From an uncultured Planctomycetia bacterium (GTDB taxonomy: Bacteria > Planctomycetota > Phycisphaerae > FEN-1346 > JAACEH01), in NCBI GenBank assembly GCA_903929765.1, contig CAIYVX010000021.1:1-39109 (forward strand): a stretch of 39,109 nucleotides of DNA, in the 5' to 3' direction. Below, piece by piece: positions 30,779 to 39,109 of this stretch. The notes beneath the pieces are model-generated. The model searched no databases and had not been told where the DNA came from. It was given only the letters and a program-made list of their open reading frames with translations. Made by a program: the position numbers and the translations under genes. How positions within the stretch are numbered: the first letter of the stretch is position 1; each line of letters starts with the position of its first letter.

Positions 30779-33700
30779 GTGAAACGTAACCTGATTGTGG
30801 TTGTGGCCGCAGTAGTTCTGGCCCTGGGCGCCGCCGCGCCTCTGGCCCAGGCGGCGACGCTGACGGTCTACCAGTCATCCGGCGGCCCAGTAGCCGTGAC
30901 GCCGAGCCAGACGACGTATTCTCCCGGCTCGGTCGTGACGCTCAGCGACACGGCGAATTCGGGCTGCACGTTTGTCGGTTGGGTGGCCACCGGCAGCGCA
31001 ACGCTGTCGAACTCGGCAGTGGTGTCGGCAACCATGACCATCAACGGCAATTGCACCCTGACGGCGCTCTACTCCCTGCTTGTGCCGCTCCAGATTTCCG
31101 GCGGGTTCAACATGGACTGCATCATCGGCCCGCGGGAAGGCACGCAAGCCTTTGTGGCCAACAAGGGCATCAATGCCTGGCAAGGCTATGAGGCGGCCGG
31201 AGTTATGAGCAACAATCAGAATAATAACCTGGGTTCCTTCTTCTGCGACACTTCGTCCAACGACGTGTCCGTCACCCCCTCTCAGTACACGATTTATTAT
31301 CAATATACCAATTCGGTCACGATTAGCTTCTCCGGCAATCAGGCCCTGCCCGAGAACGGCCTCCTCTCTTCCACGGTCGACTCGCGGACCTACTGCATCG
31401 CCTCGGTGAGCGGCAACTACCTCCTGTCCGGCGACTGGACGGAAGTCGCCGCGCCGGCCTCGACCGCCAGCAACTCCAAACCCAACGCCATCGCCGTGGG
31501 CGGTGGAATGATGGACTCGTGGCTGTGCGTGTCCCGGACGACCACTGTGAATCCGGGCTACTACGCGGACCTCAATTTCGTTTATAGCTGGTTGGGGTAT
31601 CGGCATACCCAGGGCGTGGAGCTCTGGGCCGTTTACGCCAACGTCGTCAACGGCAGCAACTCGGTCAGGCTCATCGCCGGCACTAATTTTTCCGGCGGGC
31701 CGACCGGCCTGTTCCCGAACTCGACCGTTCTTGCTACGTACGGTGCAGGAATGGACTACGGCACGTGTGAACGGTATTTTCCTGCGAGCGGTTGGGCGAA
31801 CCCCCTCTATGAGTTGGCGGCGCCGCTGACCCTGGACAGCACCCGGATGCTGACGAGCCTCACGATGTCCTTGAATACCGCCAACTGGGCCGGCAGCATG
31901 ACCGAGGTTGAACTCTACGCCGTCACGGCGCGGGGGTGGATTGATGGGGGCGCCGCGACCCTGACCACGTCGGTCAGTCCGGCCGGCGGCGGCGCGGTGG
32001 CCTACGGGCCGCTTCTGCCGACGTACACGCCGAGTTCGGTGGTGACGATCCAGGCGACGGCCAGTCCGAGTTACGCCTTCATCAACTGGTCGGTCACCGG
32101 CGGCGGCGTACTCTCAAACTCGACGGCCCAGACGACCTCGCTGACCATCAATGCCAGTTGCTCGCTGACGGCTAATTTCGTCCCGACCTACACCGGCTAT
32201 CCTTCTTACAATAGCACCTACGGAAATGTCACGCTGTCCAGCACCGGCCCATACCTCCCCGGCCAGGTGATTACCGCCACGGCGACGCCCACCAACAGCA
32301 ACTACGTTTTTGCGGGTTGGAGTGTGACGGGGGCCAGCTCGCTGTGGAATTCGGTCGTGGCGACGACCACCTTGACCGTCAACGGCAATTTCACTTTGAC
32401 GGCGAACTTCAACCTCGCGGGGGCGGCGCCGCTGGCCCTTTCCGGCTTCAACATGGACGCCTGGGTCAGCCCAAGCATGGACGCATTTTGTTACTATACC
32501 CTGAGTCCCACATTTGGAAATGTCGGTTGCCCGAAGTCCTGGTTCGGCACCGAAACCCTCGGCTATGCGTTTTCCATGATGGACACATATGGTGCCTATC
32601 AACCGGTCGTCGACGGGACTTACCCGTCCGGCGGCACCTTGTCCGGCGGCCAGGGCTTTCCGGCCGACGGCCGCCTGGCCGACCCCACCGGCCGCTCCTA
32701 CTACATCGCCTCGCTCCTCGGCAACCCGTTGTATCCCGGCGACCAGATTGAATGGGATGACGTGAACGTGGGGGTCGTCTGCACAGTGGCGGGCATTCCC
32801 TCGGTCTCGCTGTCCCTGACCCCGGCGGGCTATTACACGAACCTCAACCTGGTCCTGGCCGCGGGGATGGGCTGCGGCACTACGCAGGGCGCCACCTTCA
32901 TGCAGATCTGGGCCGTTTACTCCACCGGCCCGTCGGGTCTGCTCTTCGACTTTGGCCAGCCCAAAGTACTTGACTCCGGCGGCGCTCTCGTGGTCGGCGA
33001 CAGCCGAACCATCACCGGACCATTCATGTGCTATGCGGATTTTATTTCTTCCGGTTCGGCCGCCAACACGTCGCCGCTCTTCACCACGATCTATACGGCC
33101 TCTGATATTTTTGACGTTACGACCAACCAAAGCTTCGGCGGAACGGCCACGGCGTCCAGAAGCGTCGCCTGCCTCTACGATTTCACGACGCCGCTGACGT
33201 TGGATTCCACCAGAGTTCTGACCGCTATCGTCGTGCTGGACAACGCCATGCTGTCCTACACCGGAAGCCGCAATCCCAAGACTTCCCGCGAACTGGCCAT
33301 CTTCGGGGCCACGGCCCTGGCGGCGCCACCGGTGGGCACCGTGACCCTGACCACGTCGGTCAGTCCGCCCGGCGCCGGCGCGGTGACGGTGACGACGACC
33401 GGAGGATTGGTCAGCGGCAAAGCGGTGGTGCCGATCATGGCCTCGCCCAACGGCGGCTACGAATTTGACCACTGGACGGTCAGCGATCCCAACGCCTTCG
33501 TCGTCGTCCCCGGGCAAGCCTCGACCACGCTGACGACCAGTCTGAATAATCTCACCCTGACGGCCTGCTTCCGCAGCAGCACCGGCTACACGGCCTCGGA
33601 AACTTATACCGGCGGAACGGTCAACTTGACCCCCGGCGGCCCGTACAGTTACACCCAGACCGTGGGCCTCACGGCCACGGCCGGCAACGGCTGGGTGTTC

Positions 33701-36700
33701 GCGAGTTGGAGTTGGGATCCGACCAACTTGTACGTCTGGAACTCGACGGCGTCGTCGACCTCCATGACGGTCTATGATACCTTCAACCTGACGGCAAACT
33801 TCGTCTTGATCCCCTACACGGTGACGACGCGGCCGACGGTCCACGGGGAGATTGGTTTTGCGCCGGCCCAGAATTTCAACTATTACGGCAACGTGCTGAC
33901 GATCTGGACCTTGCCGGCTCCCGGCTACAACCTGGTGAGTTGGGCGATAACCGGGGCGACCTACGATCCGGCAGATCTGACCGTAGCCTCGACCACGATC
34001 GCGGTGACCAACAACGTGTTCCTGTCGGCCTCGTTCACGCCGGCGACGTACACGGTGACGGTCAACCAGCCGCCGTCGGGCGGCACGATCACGATGAATC
34101 CGAGCTTTGGGACATGTTCCTACGGCAAAACAACGACGGTGACGGCCACGGTCACCAATTCGAACTACCTGTTCTCCAACTGGATCGTGACCGGCGGGAC
34201 GATTAGTTCGGTCTCCTCGTCGGTGGCCACGCTGACGGTGCAGGGGAATGTGACGCTCTCGGCGAACTTCGACGCGGCCGGCACGCTATCCGTCAGCATG
34301 CCTTCCGGGTCGTACACGGTGACGCCGGCCGGACCCTACTCCGCCGGCCAGACGGTGACCGTCGCCACCTCGTACGTTGTCCCCGGCAAGGTGCTCTCTT
34401 ACTGGCAAGTGACCAGCGGGGCGAGCACTTTCTTGACCAGCAACAGCGCTGTGACCACGCAGTTGGCCATCAACGGCAACACCACCCTGACGGCCGTCTA
34501 CACCACGGGTTCCTATGTGAACAACCTCAACCCGGCGGCCTCGGATACGAACAATGGTTCGTTTACCGCGCCGTTCAAGACCATCGGCGGGGCCCTGGCC
34601 AAGACGAAGTCAGGTCATGGCACCACCATCGTCGTACTCCAGGGCGTCTACCGCGAGGCGGATCAGATGGCGGCCACCGGCACACCCGGAAATGTCATGA
34701 CGCTCATGGGCAACCCGGGCGACCGCGTCGTCGTCACCGGGGCCGATCCGATCCTCTCCTGGAGCGCCTGCACCATTTCGACTTCGCTCCTCTACGGCAA
34801 TCCCAACTACGCCCATCTCTACTATGCCGACATCCCCGGCAGTTGGCTGCCGCAGTCCCTGACCGAGGACGACAACTACCTGACGGTCGCCCAGTCGCCG
34901 GCCGGATCCTGGTGGGCCGTAGACCCCAGCACGCAAACCAATCAGACCACCTCGTTGAACAGCACGATCATCGACACGGTCCACCTGACCGGGCCGGACA
35001 ACTACTGGGTCGGCGCGGATATCGCCTACTGGTACGTGCCGGACTCGACCGAGGGCTTCCTCATGCCGATCAAGGCCTATTCGGCCGCAACGCACACCCT
35101 GACGGTCAGCGGCGTGCTGACCAATGCTTTCGCGACCTCCCCGACCGACCGGTACTATCTGATGAACCGGACGGACATGATCTGCGGTCCGGGGCAATGG
35201 GTCGTGGTTTCCAACGGCGCCAGCAACCGCGTCTTCGTCTGGCCCTCCGCCGGCGGACGTCCGGACGGCCACTTGTATGAGGCCAACCGCCGGGCGGCCA
35301 CGATCATTTACCTGTGCAATACGCCGAGTATCGGCTACTGGACGATCCAGGGCCTGGAACTCCGGGACTCTCTGGGCTGGGGCAATTTGGGCGTCTATAG
35401 CTGCGGGGGCCAAAACAACACGATTCAAAACTGCGTGATTCATCACAACGGTTACGCGGGCATCTCGACCAGGGACAGCCCCAACGATCTGTTCCAGCAC
35501 AACATCATCGCGGACAACGGGGCGGGCTGCGCCAACTATCCCAATCAGAACGCCTATTGCGGAACGGGCCTCTTCACGGGCTACGACACGGCCACCGTTT
35601 CGACCTGGGTGTACGTCAAGGAAAACGAGATTTACGACAACTTCGATGACGCCATCACCCCCGGTAGCACGTCCATTACGATCCTCGGCAACTACATCCA
35701 CGACCACTGGCATTGGGAACACGCCGACAGCATTCAGTTCACCTCGGCCTGGGGCCGCGACAACAACAACCAGGTTTATTACGCCCTGGTCCAAAACAAC
35801 CTGATTATGAAGGGCGGCGACTTCACCCAGGCCAACAGCGCCATCGGTGTGACCTTGTCGAACAACACCTGCTTGTTCTCCTCGGGCTGGTCCCAACAGG
35901 GAGAGTACATCAACCTGGCTGATGAACATAACACCATTTATGGCGCGAATAATGTAGCCAACACGCTTTACGGCAGTTACTCGGCCCATAACAACCTTTT
36001 CTATTTGGGCCTCCAAGGCCCCTGTTGGAGCATCCCGATCTCGATACCCCTGTCCAATTATTACAGCGACTACAACCTGTTCTTCGAACTTCCAGGGGTA
36101 ACGGGCAGCTACGTCGTGGCCTGGCACGGCTTTGGCAGTGACACGCTGAACGAATACGTCGCCAGAACCGCTCTGGAGGGCACGCCCGAGGATGCCCACA
36201 GCCTCTACGCCGATCCGCAAATGGCGACCGAGCCGCACATTTATCTGCCACTGGCCAAATTCCAGAACAACGATATCCAGGGCGGCCGGGTCTACCTCCT
36301 GAATGCCAACGAACAGTCTTTTCTGACGGTCGGCGACTACATCGAAGTCGGACTGGACAACGTCACGCGGACCATCACCAACATCGGCACCAGCCAGGGC
36401 TCGACCTACATCGACTTCTCCCCGTCCGACGCCAAGTTCCTCTACAATTTCTTCGATGCGGCCATCGATTGGAAGAACAGCACCATGACCAGCAATAGTT
36501 TCGATCCGACGCTCTTGCCCACCAGCCCGGCCCTCGGCGCCGCCAGCGACGGACTTAACCTCGGTTCCAACGGCATCAACATCGCCGCCTACAAGGCCGG
36601 GCTGCTCAACGGCGCCACCACCCGCGTCCTGCCCAACTGGCCGCCGATCCCGGCCAACGTCCTGCGCTGGGCGGTTGTGGCCACCCACAGTGGAGGTGTC

Positions 36701-37204
36701 GGCGACCTCGCCGTGACCACTTCCGAAGGCCAGGTTGAGCCGCGCAGCAAAGCCGTCAAGTTCCAGATCGCCTTCGACTCGCCAATCTTCGCCCCGACCA
36801 TCAGCCTCTCCGGCATAAACGCCCTGACGATCACCGGCACCAACGGAACCAACTTCTCCAGCTACATCTCCTCGACCTCGCTCGACGTAACAGGACAGAT
36901 CCTCAATGTGACTTTGTCCGCCCCCCTGCCCGATCAGAAGTGGTACACCTTCGCCCTGAACCCGCTCCTGACCGCCGCCAACGGCGGGCCGGTGCTGGGC
37001 GTCAAGTCGGTCAAAATTGGCCTGCTGGCGGGGAACGTGACCGGCTCGGGCCGGGTCTCCACCGCCGACGTCGCCGCGGAGCGCAGCTACATCGGCCTCC
37101 CGGTCACACCGGCCACCGCCAGGTTCGACATTGACAGCAACGGCGTAATCACGGCGGCCGACCAGCGGCTGATCCAATCGCTCGTCGGCCACAGTCTGCC
37201 TTAA
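30779..37204 (+). CDS. Giant secreted repeat protein with beta-helix and dockerin-like end
   Basis: The product is 2141 aa from the GTG at 30779 (GGAG about 10 nt upstream). A signal peptide (1-25, cleaved after AQA) directs export. Module order: one InlB-type beta repeat (about 27-100); an unknown ~280-residue domain beginning LQISGGFNMD (about 103-385); two beta repeats (about 395-546); a second copy of the unknown domain beginning LALSGFNMDAW (about 555-848); five beta repeats (about 851-1243); a right-handed beta-helix region (about 1244-1955) opening SDTNNGSFTAPFKTIGGAL and rich in N-x-I turns; an Ig-like stretch; and a dockerin-like end (about 2085-2141) with DIDSNGVITAAD as a calcium loop. 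It may be a surface adhesin or a glycan-binding or glycan-cutting protein. No catalytic residues can be named. Confidence 0.88.
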   Translation: MKRNLIVVVAAVVLALGAAAPLAQAATLTVYQSSGGPVAVTPSQTTYSPGSVVTLSDTANSGCTFVGWVATGSATLSNSAVVSATMTINGNCTLTALYSLLVPLQISGGFNMDCIIGPREGTQAFVANKGINAWQGYEAAGVMSNNQNNNLGSFFCDTSSNDVSVTPSQYTIYYQYTNSVTISFSGNQALPENGLLSSTVDSRTYCIASVSGNYLLSGDWTEVAAPASTASNSKPNAIAVGGGMMDSWLCVSRTTTVNPGYYADLNFVYSWLGYRHTQGVELWAVYANVVNGSNSVRLIAGTNFSGGPTGLFPNSTVLATYGAGMDYGTCERYFPASGWANPLYELAAPLTLDSTRMLTSLTMSLNTANWAGSMTEVELYAVTARGWIDGGAATLTTSVSPAGGGAVAYGPLLPTYTPSSVVTIQATASPSYAFINWSVTGGGVLSNSTAQTTSLTINASCSLTANFVPTYTGYPSYNSTYGNVTLSSTGPYLPGQVITATATPTNSNYVFAGWSVTGASSLWNSVVATTTLTVNGNFTLTANFNLAGAAPLALSGFNMDAWVSPSMDAFCYYTLSPTFGNVGCPKSWFGTETLGYAFSMMDTYGAYQPVVDGTYPSGGTLSGGQGFPADGRLADPTGRSYYIASLLGNPLYPGDQIEWDDVNVGVVCTVAGIPSVSLSLTPAGYYTNLNLVLAAGMGCGTTQGATFMQIWAVYSTGPSGLLFDFGQPKVLDSGGALVVGDSRTITGPFMCYADFISSGSAANTSPLFTTIYTASDIFDVTTNQSFGGTATASRSVACLYDFTTPLTLDSTRVLTAIVVLDNAMLSYTGSRNPKTSRELAIFGATALAAPPVGTVTLTTSVSPPGAGAVTVTTTGGLVSGKAVVPIMASPNGGYEFDHWTVSDPNAFVVVPGQASTTLTTSLNNLTLTACFRSSTGYTASETYTGGTVNLTPGGPYSYTQTVGLTATAGNGWVFASWSWDPTNLYVWNSTASSTSMTVYDTFNLTANFVLIPYTVTTRPTVHGEIGFAPAQNFNYYGNVLTIWTLPAPGYNLVSWAITGATYDPADLTVASTTIAVTNNVFLSASFTPATYTVTVNQPPSGGTITMNPSFGTCSYGKTTTVTATVTNSNYLFSNWIVTGGTISSVSSSVATLTVQGNVTLSANFDAAGTLSVSMPSGSYTVTPAGPYSAGQTVTVATSYVVPGKVLSYWQVTSGASTFLTSNSAVTTQLAINGNTTLTAVYTTGSYVNNLNPAASDTNNGSFTAPFKTIGGALAKTKSGHGTTIVVLQGVYREADQMAATGTPGNVMTLMGNPGDRVVVTGADPILSWSACTISTSLLYGNPNYAHLYYADIPGSWLPQSLTEDDNYLTVAQSPAGSWWAVDPSTQTNQTTSLNSTIIDTVHLTGPDNYWVGADIAYWYVPDSTEGFLMPIKAYSAATHTLTVSGVLTNAFATSPTDRYYLMNRTDMICGPGQWVVVSNGASNRVFVWPSAGGRPDGHLYEANRRAATIIYLCNTPSIGYWTIQGLELRDSLGWGNLGVYSCGGQNNTIQNCVIHHNGYAGISTRDSPNDLFQHNIIADNGAGCANYPNQNAYCGTGLFTGYDTATVSTWVYVKENEIYDNFDDAITPGSTSITILGNYIHDHWHWEHADSIQFTSAWGRDNNNQVYYALVQNNLIMKGGDFTQANSAIGVTLSNNTCLFSSGWSQQGEYINLADEHNTIYGANNVANTLYGSYSAHNNLFYLGLQGPCWSIPISIPLSNYYSDYNLFFELPGVTGSYVVAWHGFGSDTLNEYVARTALEGTPEDAHSLYADPQMATEPHIYLPLAKFQNNDIQGGRVYLLNANEQSFLTVGDYIEVGLDNVTRTITNIGTSQGSTYIDFSPSDAKFLYNFFDAAIDWKNSTMTSNSFDPTLLPTSPALGAASDGLNLGSNGINIAAYKAGLLNGATTRVLPNWPPIPANVLRWAVVATHSGGVGDLAVTTSEGQVEPRSKAVKFQIAFDSPIFAPTISLSGINALTITGTNGTNFSSYISSTSLDVTGQILNVTLSAPLPDQKWYTFALNPLLTAANGGPVLGVKSVKIGLLAGNVTGSGRVSTADVAAERSYIGLPVTPATARFDIDSNGVITAADQRLIQSLVGHSLP

Positions 37205-37228: not shown

Positions 37229-39109
37229 GTGATTGGTAAACTTCTTGTGGTTTTGGCCGTAGCGGTTCTGGCTCTGGGTGCCGCCGCGCCTTTGGTCCCA
37301 GCGGCAACGCTGACGGTCTACCAGTCATCCGGCGGCCCAGTGGCCGTGACTCCGAGCCAGACGACGTATTCCCCCGGCTCGGTCGTGACGCTAAGCGATA
37401 CGGCCAATACCGGATTCACCTTCGTCGGCTGGATAGTCACAGGCAGTGCCGTGCTGTCGAACTCCTCGGTGGTGTCGGCGACGATGACCATCAACGGCAA
37501 TTGTGCGCTGACGGCGCTCTATTCCGGGTTGGCACCGCTCCAGATTTCCAGCGGGTTCAACATGAACGCCTGGTGCAGCCCGGCCATGTTCAACAACTGC
37601 GTGGCGCAAAACAAGAGCCTGTACGCCGTGTACGTCGGGGAGCCGAACGGCTACTCGCTGGGCCTGGGCAGCGGAGGCCACAACGTAGCTAGTCTGTGCG
37701 CCGTCACGACGGTCTCCGACAGCGCCGGAACCATCTCGTACAACGGCACCTATTTGACCGGCAGCCAAGGCACGCCGAGGAACGGCATGCTGACCGGCTC
37801 CGGCGGCCGGACCTACTGCGTCGCCTCGGTCAGTGGCAACGCCGTGATGCCCTACGACTCGATCGACCTGAAGAACGCCGCGGTCATCGGCCAGGTTTAC
37901 AACACGGCCTACTGGGACGTCGCGCAGGTGACGCTGCCGGTGCCCGTGACCTACTACTCGGACATCAACTTCGTCCTGGCGGCCGCGAACTCCAATTCCT
38001 GCCAGATCTGGGCCGTCTACTCCGACACCACCTCGACCAAGCTCTACGACTTCGGGGCGTCCACCGGTCCGGGCATTGAATCGTCCACGCCCTCCGCCTA
38101 CTCGGGCTTCAACGCCATCTTTATCAGCAGCGAGGATCTTTATGACGGCGCCAGCCCGCCGTATTTTCGGACCGACGGCTTCGGGCCCAGCCTCTACGAA
38201 TTCTCCACGCCCTTCACACTGGATTCCTCCAGGCCGCTCCAGAGCATCGTGCTGATCAATACTCTCGCCTCGAGCAACTATAACCTCAACTACCCCGAAC
38301 TGGCCATCTTTGCCGCCACGGCGCGGGGGGTGTTTGATGCGGGCAACCTGACCTTGACCACGTCGATCAGCCCGGCCGGCGCCGGCGCGGTAACCTGGTT
38401 GCCGCGCCTGCTGACTTACACGCCCAGCTCGGTGGTGACGGTTCAGGCGTCCGCCATTTCGGGCTACGGCTTCTCCTACTGGTCGGTCACCGGCGGCGGG
38501 GCGATCTCGAACTCCACGGCCGCGACCGCCTCGCTGACCATCTATTCGAGTTGCTCGCTGACGGCGGTGTTCGTTCCGGCCTACACCAGTACGGAAAGCG
38601 CCACCGGCGGAACGATCCAGTTGACGTCCAACGGCCCGTACACCTACAACCAGGTCGTGGGCATTACGGCTTCGCCCAACGCCGGCTGGCAGTTCGTCAA
38701 ATGGACGGCCACCAACGCGACGATCTCGAACTCGACGGCGGCGACGACCTCGCTGACGGTGCTGGGCAGCTTCGACCTGACGGCCCTGTTCAGCCTGGTG
38801 CCCTACTCGGTGACGACGACGGTCTTGCCGTCGGCCGCGAACGGGATAGTGACTTACCAGCCGGTCATCGGGCCGTACTACTATGGCAACGTGCTGCAGA
38901 TCCAGGCCTATCCGGCCACGGGCTACCAGTTCGTGGGTTGGACGGTGACCGGGGCCAATCTGGGGGCCAACGTGGCCTCGACCACGGCCACGGTGACCAA
39001 CAACGTGAGCCTGACGGCCTCGTTCACGCCGGCGCAGTACACGGTGACGTTGAACCAGACGGCCGGCGGCAATGCGTCGGTCTCGCCGAGCCAGGCCACG
39101 TATTACTAC
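37229..39109 (+). CDS. Second giant repeat protein, tandem paralogue, cut by window end
   Basis: The frame is open from the GTG at 37229 to the last base (627 codons, no stop), so the gene is incomplete here. AAAGGAAGG lies just before the start, and only 24 nt separate it from the first giant gene, so the two are probably read as one mRNA. It has a signal peptide (MIGKLLVVLAVAVLALGAAAP), then an InlB-type repeat that is nearly identical in DNA to the first module of its neighbour. A third copy of the unknown domain follows (LQISSGFNMNAW, about residues 106-370), then at least three full beta repeats ending in TAxF-type strands and the start of a fourth. The C-terminal architecture cannot be seen. 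It is clearly a duplicate that has since diverged outside the N-terminal module. Confidence 0.88.
   Translation, partial: MIGKLLVVLAVAVLALGAAAPLVPAATLTVYQSSGGPVAVTPSQTTYSPGSVVTLSDTANTGFTFVGWIVTGSAVLSNSSVVSATMTINGNCALTALYSGLAPLQISSGFNMNAWCSPAMFNNCVAQNKSLYAVYVGEPNGYSLGLGSGGHNVASLCAVTTVSDSAGTISYNGTYLTGSQGTPRNGMLTGSGGRTYCVASVSGNAVMPYDSIDLKNAAVIGQVYNTAYWDVAQVTLPVPVTYYSDINFVLAAANSNSCQIWAVYSDTTSTKLYDFGASTGPGIESSTPSAYSGFNAIFISSEDLYDGASPPYFRTDGFGPSLYEFSTPFTLDSSRPLQSIVLINTLASSNYNLNYPELAIFAATARGVFDAGNLTLTTSISPAGAGAVTWLPRLLTYTPSSVVTVQASAISGYGFSYWSVTGGGAISNSTAATASLTIYSSCSLTAVFVPAYTSTESATGGTIQLTSNGPYTYNQVVGITASPNAGWQFVKWTATNATISNSTAATTSLTVLGSFDLTALFSLVPYSVTTTVLPSAANGIVTYQPVIGPYYYGNVLQIQAYPATGYQFVGWTVTGANLGANVASTTATVTNNVSLTASFTPAQYTVTLNQTAGGNASVSPSQATYYY

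Follow-up and report, generated by a model that had tools for sequence, protein, structure and literature searches.

The window, a stretch of 39,109 nucleotides, is the whole of contig C21 from an assembly (G000; 3.83 Mb, 116 contigs, 96% complete) of an uncultured Planctomycetia bacterium. A tandem pair of genes, P1 and P2, lies on its forward strand downstream of a gene for a histidine kinase with a Tll0287-like sensor domain. The products are exported modular proteins with export-like N-termini. The features of the pair are given below, FNM denoting the repeated domain that is the subject of this study.

30779..37204, + strand: P1, exported modular protein, 2141 aa, GTG start (ORF reading, Pfam)
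30779..30856, + strand: P1 signal-peptide-like N-terminus (VKRNLIVVVAAVVLALGAAAPLAQAA), read from the sequence alone
30872..31072, + strand: P1 InlB-type (Flg_new_2) repeat
31076..31936, + strand: P1 FNM domain copy 1, closest paralogue the copy on contig C79
31979..32410, + strand: P1 InlB-type repeats, two
32417..33322, + strand: P1 FNM domain copy 2, the most divergent of the three in the window
33365..34501, + strand: P1 InlB-type repeats, five
34613..36658 (approximate limits), + strand: P1 right-handed beta-helix region, with homologues in C19, C44, G001 and G437 proteins
37034..37174, + strand: P1 dockerin-like C-terminus, Pfam score below cut-off
37229..39109, + strand: P2, second exported modular protein, at least 627 aa, open at the contig end
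37322..37522, + strand: P2 InlB-type repeat
37526..38329, + strand: P2 FNM domain copy 3, type A, 88% DNA identity to copy 3 of C98
38372..39109, + strand: P2 InlB-type repeats, near-identical to those of C19

P1 accordingly reads as a signal-like start, an InlB repeat, FNM, two InlB repeats, FNM, five InlB repeats, the right-handed beta-helix and a dockerin-like end. P2 begins in the same manner, with a signal-like start, an InlB repeat and FNM, and continues with InlB repeats to the contig end.

The first-pass annotation had described a recurring domain in three copies here, and all three were recovered with limits that agreed to about 25 bases. The starts at 31076, 32417 and 37526 lie about 11-23 bases upstream of those first given because a conserved leading strand ([VA]PL.IS) belongs to the domain; without this strand, the copies span 31100-31936 and 32441-33322 in P1 and 37550-38329 in P2. 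The shared motifs listed at that time hold approximately, as [GS]R[TS]Y[CY][IV]AS[VL][SL]GN, YY[AST][DN][LI]N[FL]V, [LI]WAVY and [AT]P[LF]TLDS[TS]R. When copy 1 was used as the query against the genome, copy 3 was found at E=7e-14 with 30% identity, so that the likeness is not due to chance; copy 2 was missed in this search with copy 1 alone. A family profile, whose rows included the three window copies, scored copies 1, 2 and 3 at 6e-80, 1e-68 and 1e-112, respectively.

Subsequently, the domain was compared with known families. The copies were compared with Pfam and NCBIfam, and the family profiles with PDB sequences and genomes, and no known family matched. The clear hit to an existing family that the first-pass annotation had named as counter-evidence thus did not turn up. 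Among 33 FNM copies, none had a credible family in Pfam or NCBIfam, none passed a curated cut-off and none was matched by a Pfam CBM model. Five representatives, three of them window copies, gave no match in PHROGs, and the FNM profiles found no credible match among PDB sequences. The InlB B-repeat (PF18998, Flg_new_2) neighbours FNM in the same proteins but is a separate family of 65-75 residues; FNM as a variant of this repeat was ruled out, the FNM segments having no PF18998 match. A viral origin was also rejected, since a viral contig scan contained no relative and viral models yielded no useful hit in a fold search; so was a plasmid location, for which tblastn showed no match. As judged from sequence comparison, FNM is a real unnamed family that belongs to none of the families tested here, in line with the initial statement that it could not be assigned.

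The domain is about 270-310 residues long, and FN-D, G-P--G, Y--AS--GN, Y--N and A-Y are conserved across the family. An iterated profile search yielded 22 full copies in this genome and pieces at contig ends, distributed over at least ten genes with up to four copies per protein, and no stop codon was found within any full copy. The same-family genome JAAYDY (G001) has 11 full copies, and the Planctomycetota assembly JAAYZK (G437) has five copies and three divergent relatives; core residues are invariant across the three genomes. The family profile found no credible member in 59 further relatives or in 391 genomes of the phylum. Further genome samples likewise held no credible member, apart from the weak link to L116 that is described below and a single weak, broken match (L127). 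When 84,980 species genomes were scanned by pattern, nine loci were obtained, all in JAAYDY and JAAYZK; the patterns were exact and of 9-10 residues, so that distant members may escape. The window's own records may also be absent from that set. FNM thus looks restricted to a few Planctomycetota lineages. In this genome, FNM genes stand at contig ends on C21, C22, C28, C41, C60, C79 and C98; the repeats probably broke the assembly there, and the copy count is accordingly a lower bound.

Two small pieces were also observed. On C114 (33575-33760), a 54-residue piece of the FNM core (YNGG..GLPENGALTPTDGRDYQIASVGGNATLYGDGTE), with the rest of the domain absent, sits in a 1284-aa protein with TPR matches. 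On C24 (34234-34398), an N-terminal piece of about 58 residues lies in a 135-aa ORF, and inspection of the other two frames by eye showed no continuation.

More distant relatives were recognised by profile comparison. In L090 and L091 of JAAYZK, an FN-[YF]-D-A domain is joined to a PEP-CTERM tail; the domain of L132, from the same assembly, is 75% identical to that of L091 but has a dockerin-like tail in place of PEP-CTERM, an apparent anchor swap. An independent profile of these three aligned with FNM at an hhalign score of 63.4, whereas 40 column shuffles gave no more than 18.9 and the reversed profile 12.3. A second group, the FN-A-D-V domain of L116, L118 and L119 from other genomes of the class, scored 54.0 against at most 21.4 when shuffled (probability 93.6). 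This domain is itself unnamed and, at 223 aa, shorter than FNM, lacking the Y--AS--GN--GDW insert. Both comparisons place FNM as a branch within a broader group that is likewise unnamed. The comparison of profiles A9 and A7 was insignificant (probability 4), and the two outlying groups are therefore linked solely via FNM. A broader relationship to an actinobacterial C-terminal sandwich domain is suspected.

The DNA of the copies was then compared. P1 copy 1 and the C79 copy share mostly 70-93% identity per 60-base step from 31079 to about 31919, with a few steps lower, and just outside the domain on both sides the identity is about 40-60%. The same pattern was seen between the P2 copy and the C98 copy, whose similarity ends at the domain edges. 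Since similarity stops at these edges, FNM moves as a cassette. P2 and the C19 protein have nearly identical repeats (pS 0.06), whereas the divergence between their FNM domains is greater (pS 0.17). In the tree, the copies of this genome cluster (89/87) apart from the others (94/84), save for an outlying C41 copy; these values, which are below a strict support threshold, suggest separate expansions. Pooled dN/dS, obtained by a simple counting method and open to shifts from codon bias and from misaligned loops, was 0.89 for type A (12 copies), 0.74 for type B and about 1.1 for type C (one pair) in this genome, and 0.34 in G001. For comparison, it was 0.12 for the N-terminal InlB repeat between P1 and P2 (72 codons) and 0.58 for the repeats between P2 and C19. 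Strands are more constrained than loops and coil (pN/pS 0.74 vs 0.98). Values near 1 could stem from a relaxation of constraint and not from selection towards new specificities.

Structure prediction and a fold search, both suggested at the outset, were also carried out. With 16 sequences, AlphaFold2 models were obtained for window copy 3 (pLDDT 64.9, pTM 0.71), in which residues 29-80 are unreliable, and for a G001 copy (pLDDT 75.5, pTM 0.81). The C-terminal half, rich in beta strands, is predicted to be a beta-sandwich. Among solved structures, both models ranked AziU3/U2 (PDB 7wuw, 8gs1) first, as a weak match: the Foldseek probability for 7wuw_A was 1.00 with both models (E 1.7e-5 and 2e-3), TM-scores were 0.44-0.49 and 0.56 by target and 0.34-0.42 by query, rmsd was 5-7, and identity was 15-19% in most structural alignments to 7wuw and 8gs1. 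None of the profiles A1, A5, A7 and A8 found a PDB chain of AziU3/U2. Because the TM-scores lie on both sides of 0.5 and its sequence is matched by none of the profiles, we treat AziU3/U2 as a lead. The CBM32, CBM62, MAM and F5/8C folds followed weakly (E 0.05-0.2). The galactose-binding-like modules (CBM32, CBM62, F5/8 type C) have a jelly-roll-type sandwich and occur in modular extracellular proteins, but they comprise about 140-160 aa, whereas FNM has a long N-terminal half of about 130 residues that is partly of low model confidence. Hence, of the first-pass proposal of a carbohydrate-binding-like sandwich, the sandwich stands as a prediction; the carbohydrate-binding folds came only as secondary weak matches after AziU3/U2.

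The modules that accompany FNM differ between genomes. In this genome they are InlB repeats, a beta-helix and dockerin; in the relatives, PKD domains serve as spacers in place of InlB, again with a beta-helix and dockerin. The alternation with InlB repeats that had been taken as a modular system is now seen in at least ten genes, but the pairing with InlB is particular to this genome. As a whole, the earlier reading is partly supported. For the P1 beta-helix, no credible PDB relative was found by sequence and no lyase or hydrolase family was assigned. L072 consists of a single FNM domain and a PEP-CTERM tail, which L090 and L091 share and in whose place P1 has its dockerin-like end. PEP-CTERM, the mark of exosortase targets among exported proteins, is a sorting signal and no homologue of FNM; two exosortases occur in this genome. 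The genome has 28 dockerin matches, of which 25 are over the cut-off and that of P1 is below. A cohesin partner, as in a cellulosome-type system, was sought, and no PF00963 match was found in this genome (96% complete); with 25 dockerins over the cut-off and type I cohesin undetected, some partner not yet recognised may bind the dockerins. For other Planctomycetes, a 'planctosome' of cohesin and dockerin has been put forward (PMC6461901).

A conserved region of about 580 aa, common to L088 (2119-6153) and L027 (1275-4370), accompanies FNM in two genomes. It had no Pfam match in either protein and, in L088, no NCBIfam or credible PDB-sequence match; it is possibly an unnamed enzyme. At L027 (G000, C41, 1275-6370), a 1032-aa ORF with He_PIG and fn3 overlaps, in another frame, a 785-aa ORF with InlB, FNM and dockerin. 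The N-terminal ~555 residues of the longer ORF are 30% identical to the C-terminal region of L088, which bears FNM. The overlapping ORFs are probably one original protein whose frame was changed, by error or in reality.

Taken together, FNM is probably an accessory module of extracellular proteins, a putative glycan or surface binder. In full, the explanation that we favour, to which we give an even chance, is an exported, non-catalytic, cassette-shuffled and rapidly diverging beta-sandwich module that most likely binds a ligand, a glycan or surface polymer, and holds the attached modules. A polymer-binding role is suggested by export, by repetition, by the predicted fold and by the company of beta-helix and dockerin; the ligand is putative, and the lack of catalysis and the carbohydrate role of the partners are presumed. 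Duplication and cassette-wise shuffling would have spread the domain through large extracellular proteins in a few lineages of Planctomycetota. By binding an extracellular polymer, it would hold the beta-helix or the ~580-aa region against its substrate, or tether the cell; spacing would be provided by the InlB-type or PKD repeats, and the protein would be positioned by its dockerin or PEP-CTERM tail.

A less probable explanation, although one with real standing, is that FNM is a structural or adhesive surface module, forming long surface filaments with InlB or PKD repeats for attachment, with no enzyme-specific glycan substrate. Long InlB arrays do alternate with FNM where a recognised catalytic domain is absent, as in C97 (2740 aa), C28 and C22, and the single-domain PEP-CTERM form, the two exosortases and the faster divergence of loops would fit such filaments. 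However, several copies adjoin a beta-helix and dockerin, which typically accompany enzymes directed at polysaccharides, and the unnamed ~580-aa region is a common partner in two relatives. Catalysis by FNM is conceivable, as its nearest match among solved folds is an enzyme. AziU3/U2, which acts in azinomycin aziridine formation, has been described as an aziridine synthase in function (PMC12559475), and its fold has been called novel (PMC11168924). A catalytic or small-molecule-binding domain related to this enzyme of aziridine-forming sulfate elimination is nevertheless improbable: both models rank AziU3/U2 first among solved structures, but no profile has a PDB sequence match, and a TM near 0.5 with such an rmsd fits just a shared sandwich topology. 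Moreover, AziU3/U2 is a natural-product biosynthesis enzyme of about 200 aa, whereas FNM is a repeated exported module of 270-300 aa, and an enzyme would not usually recur as many as four times in one protein. We consider just as doubtful a decaying or selfish expansion, spread by recombination of repetitive DNA under little constraint. The dN/dS near 1 between copies in this genome, the fragments on C114 and C24, the frame change on C41 and the many copies at contig ends are what it would leave; the complete lack of internal stop codons in the 22 full copies, the invariant core residues in three genomes and the greater conservation of strands than of loops speak against it.

A bolder form of the favoured binding module is a long shot, barely ahead of these last two: FNM would be a new exported superfamily sharing the AziU3/U2 fold, which by shuffling and rapid loop evolution has diversified into more than 20 surface-binding specificities in one bacterium. 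If the likeness to AziU3/U2 is true, that fold would be placed in a widely different setting. The FNM family, which current libraries miss, is now named and bounded, and it shows precise cassette transfer between spacer types and anchors. A single domain of the L072 type provides a small soluble unit for probing binding by the giant proteins of uncultured Planctomycetota.
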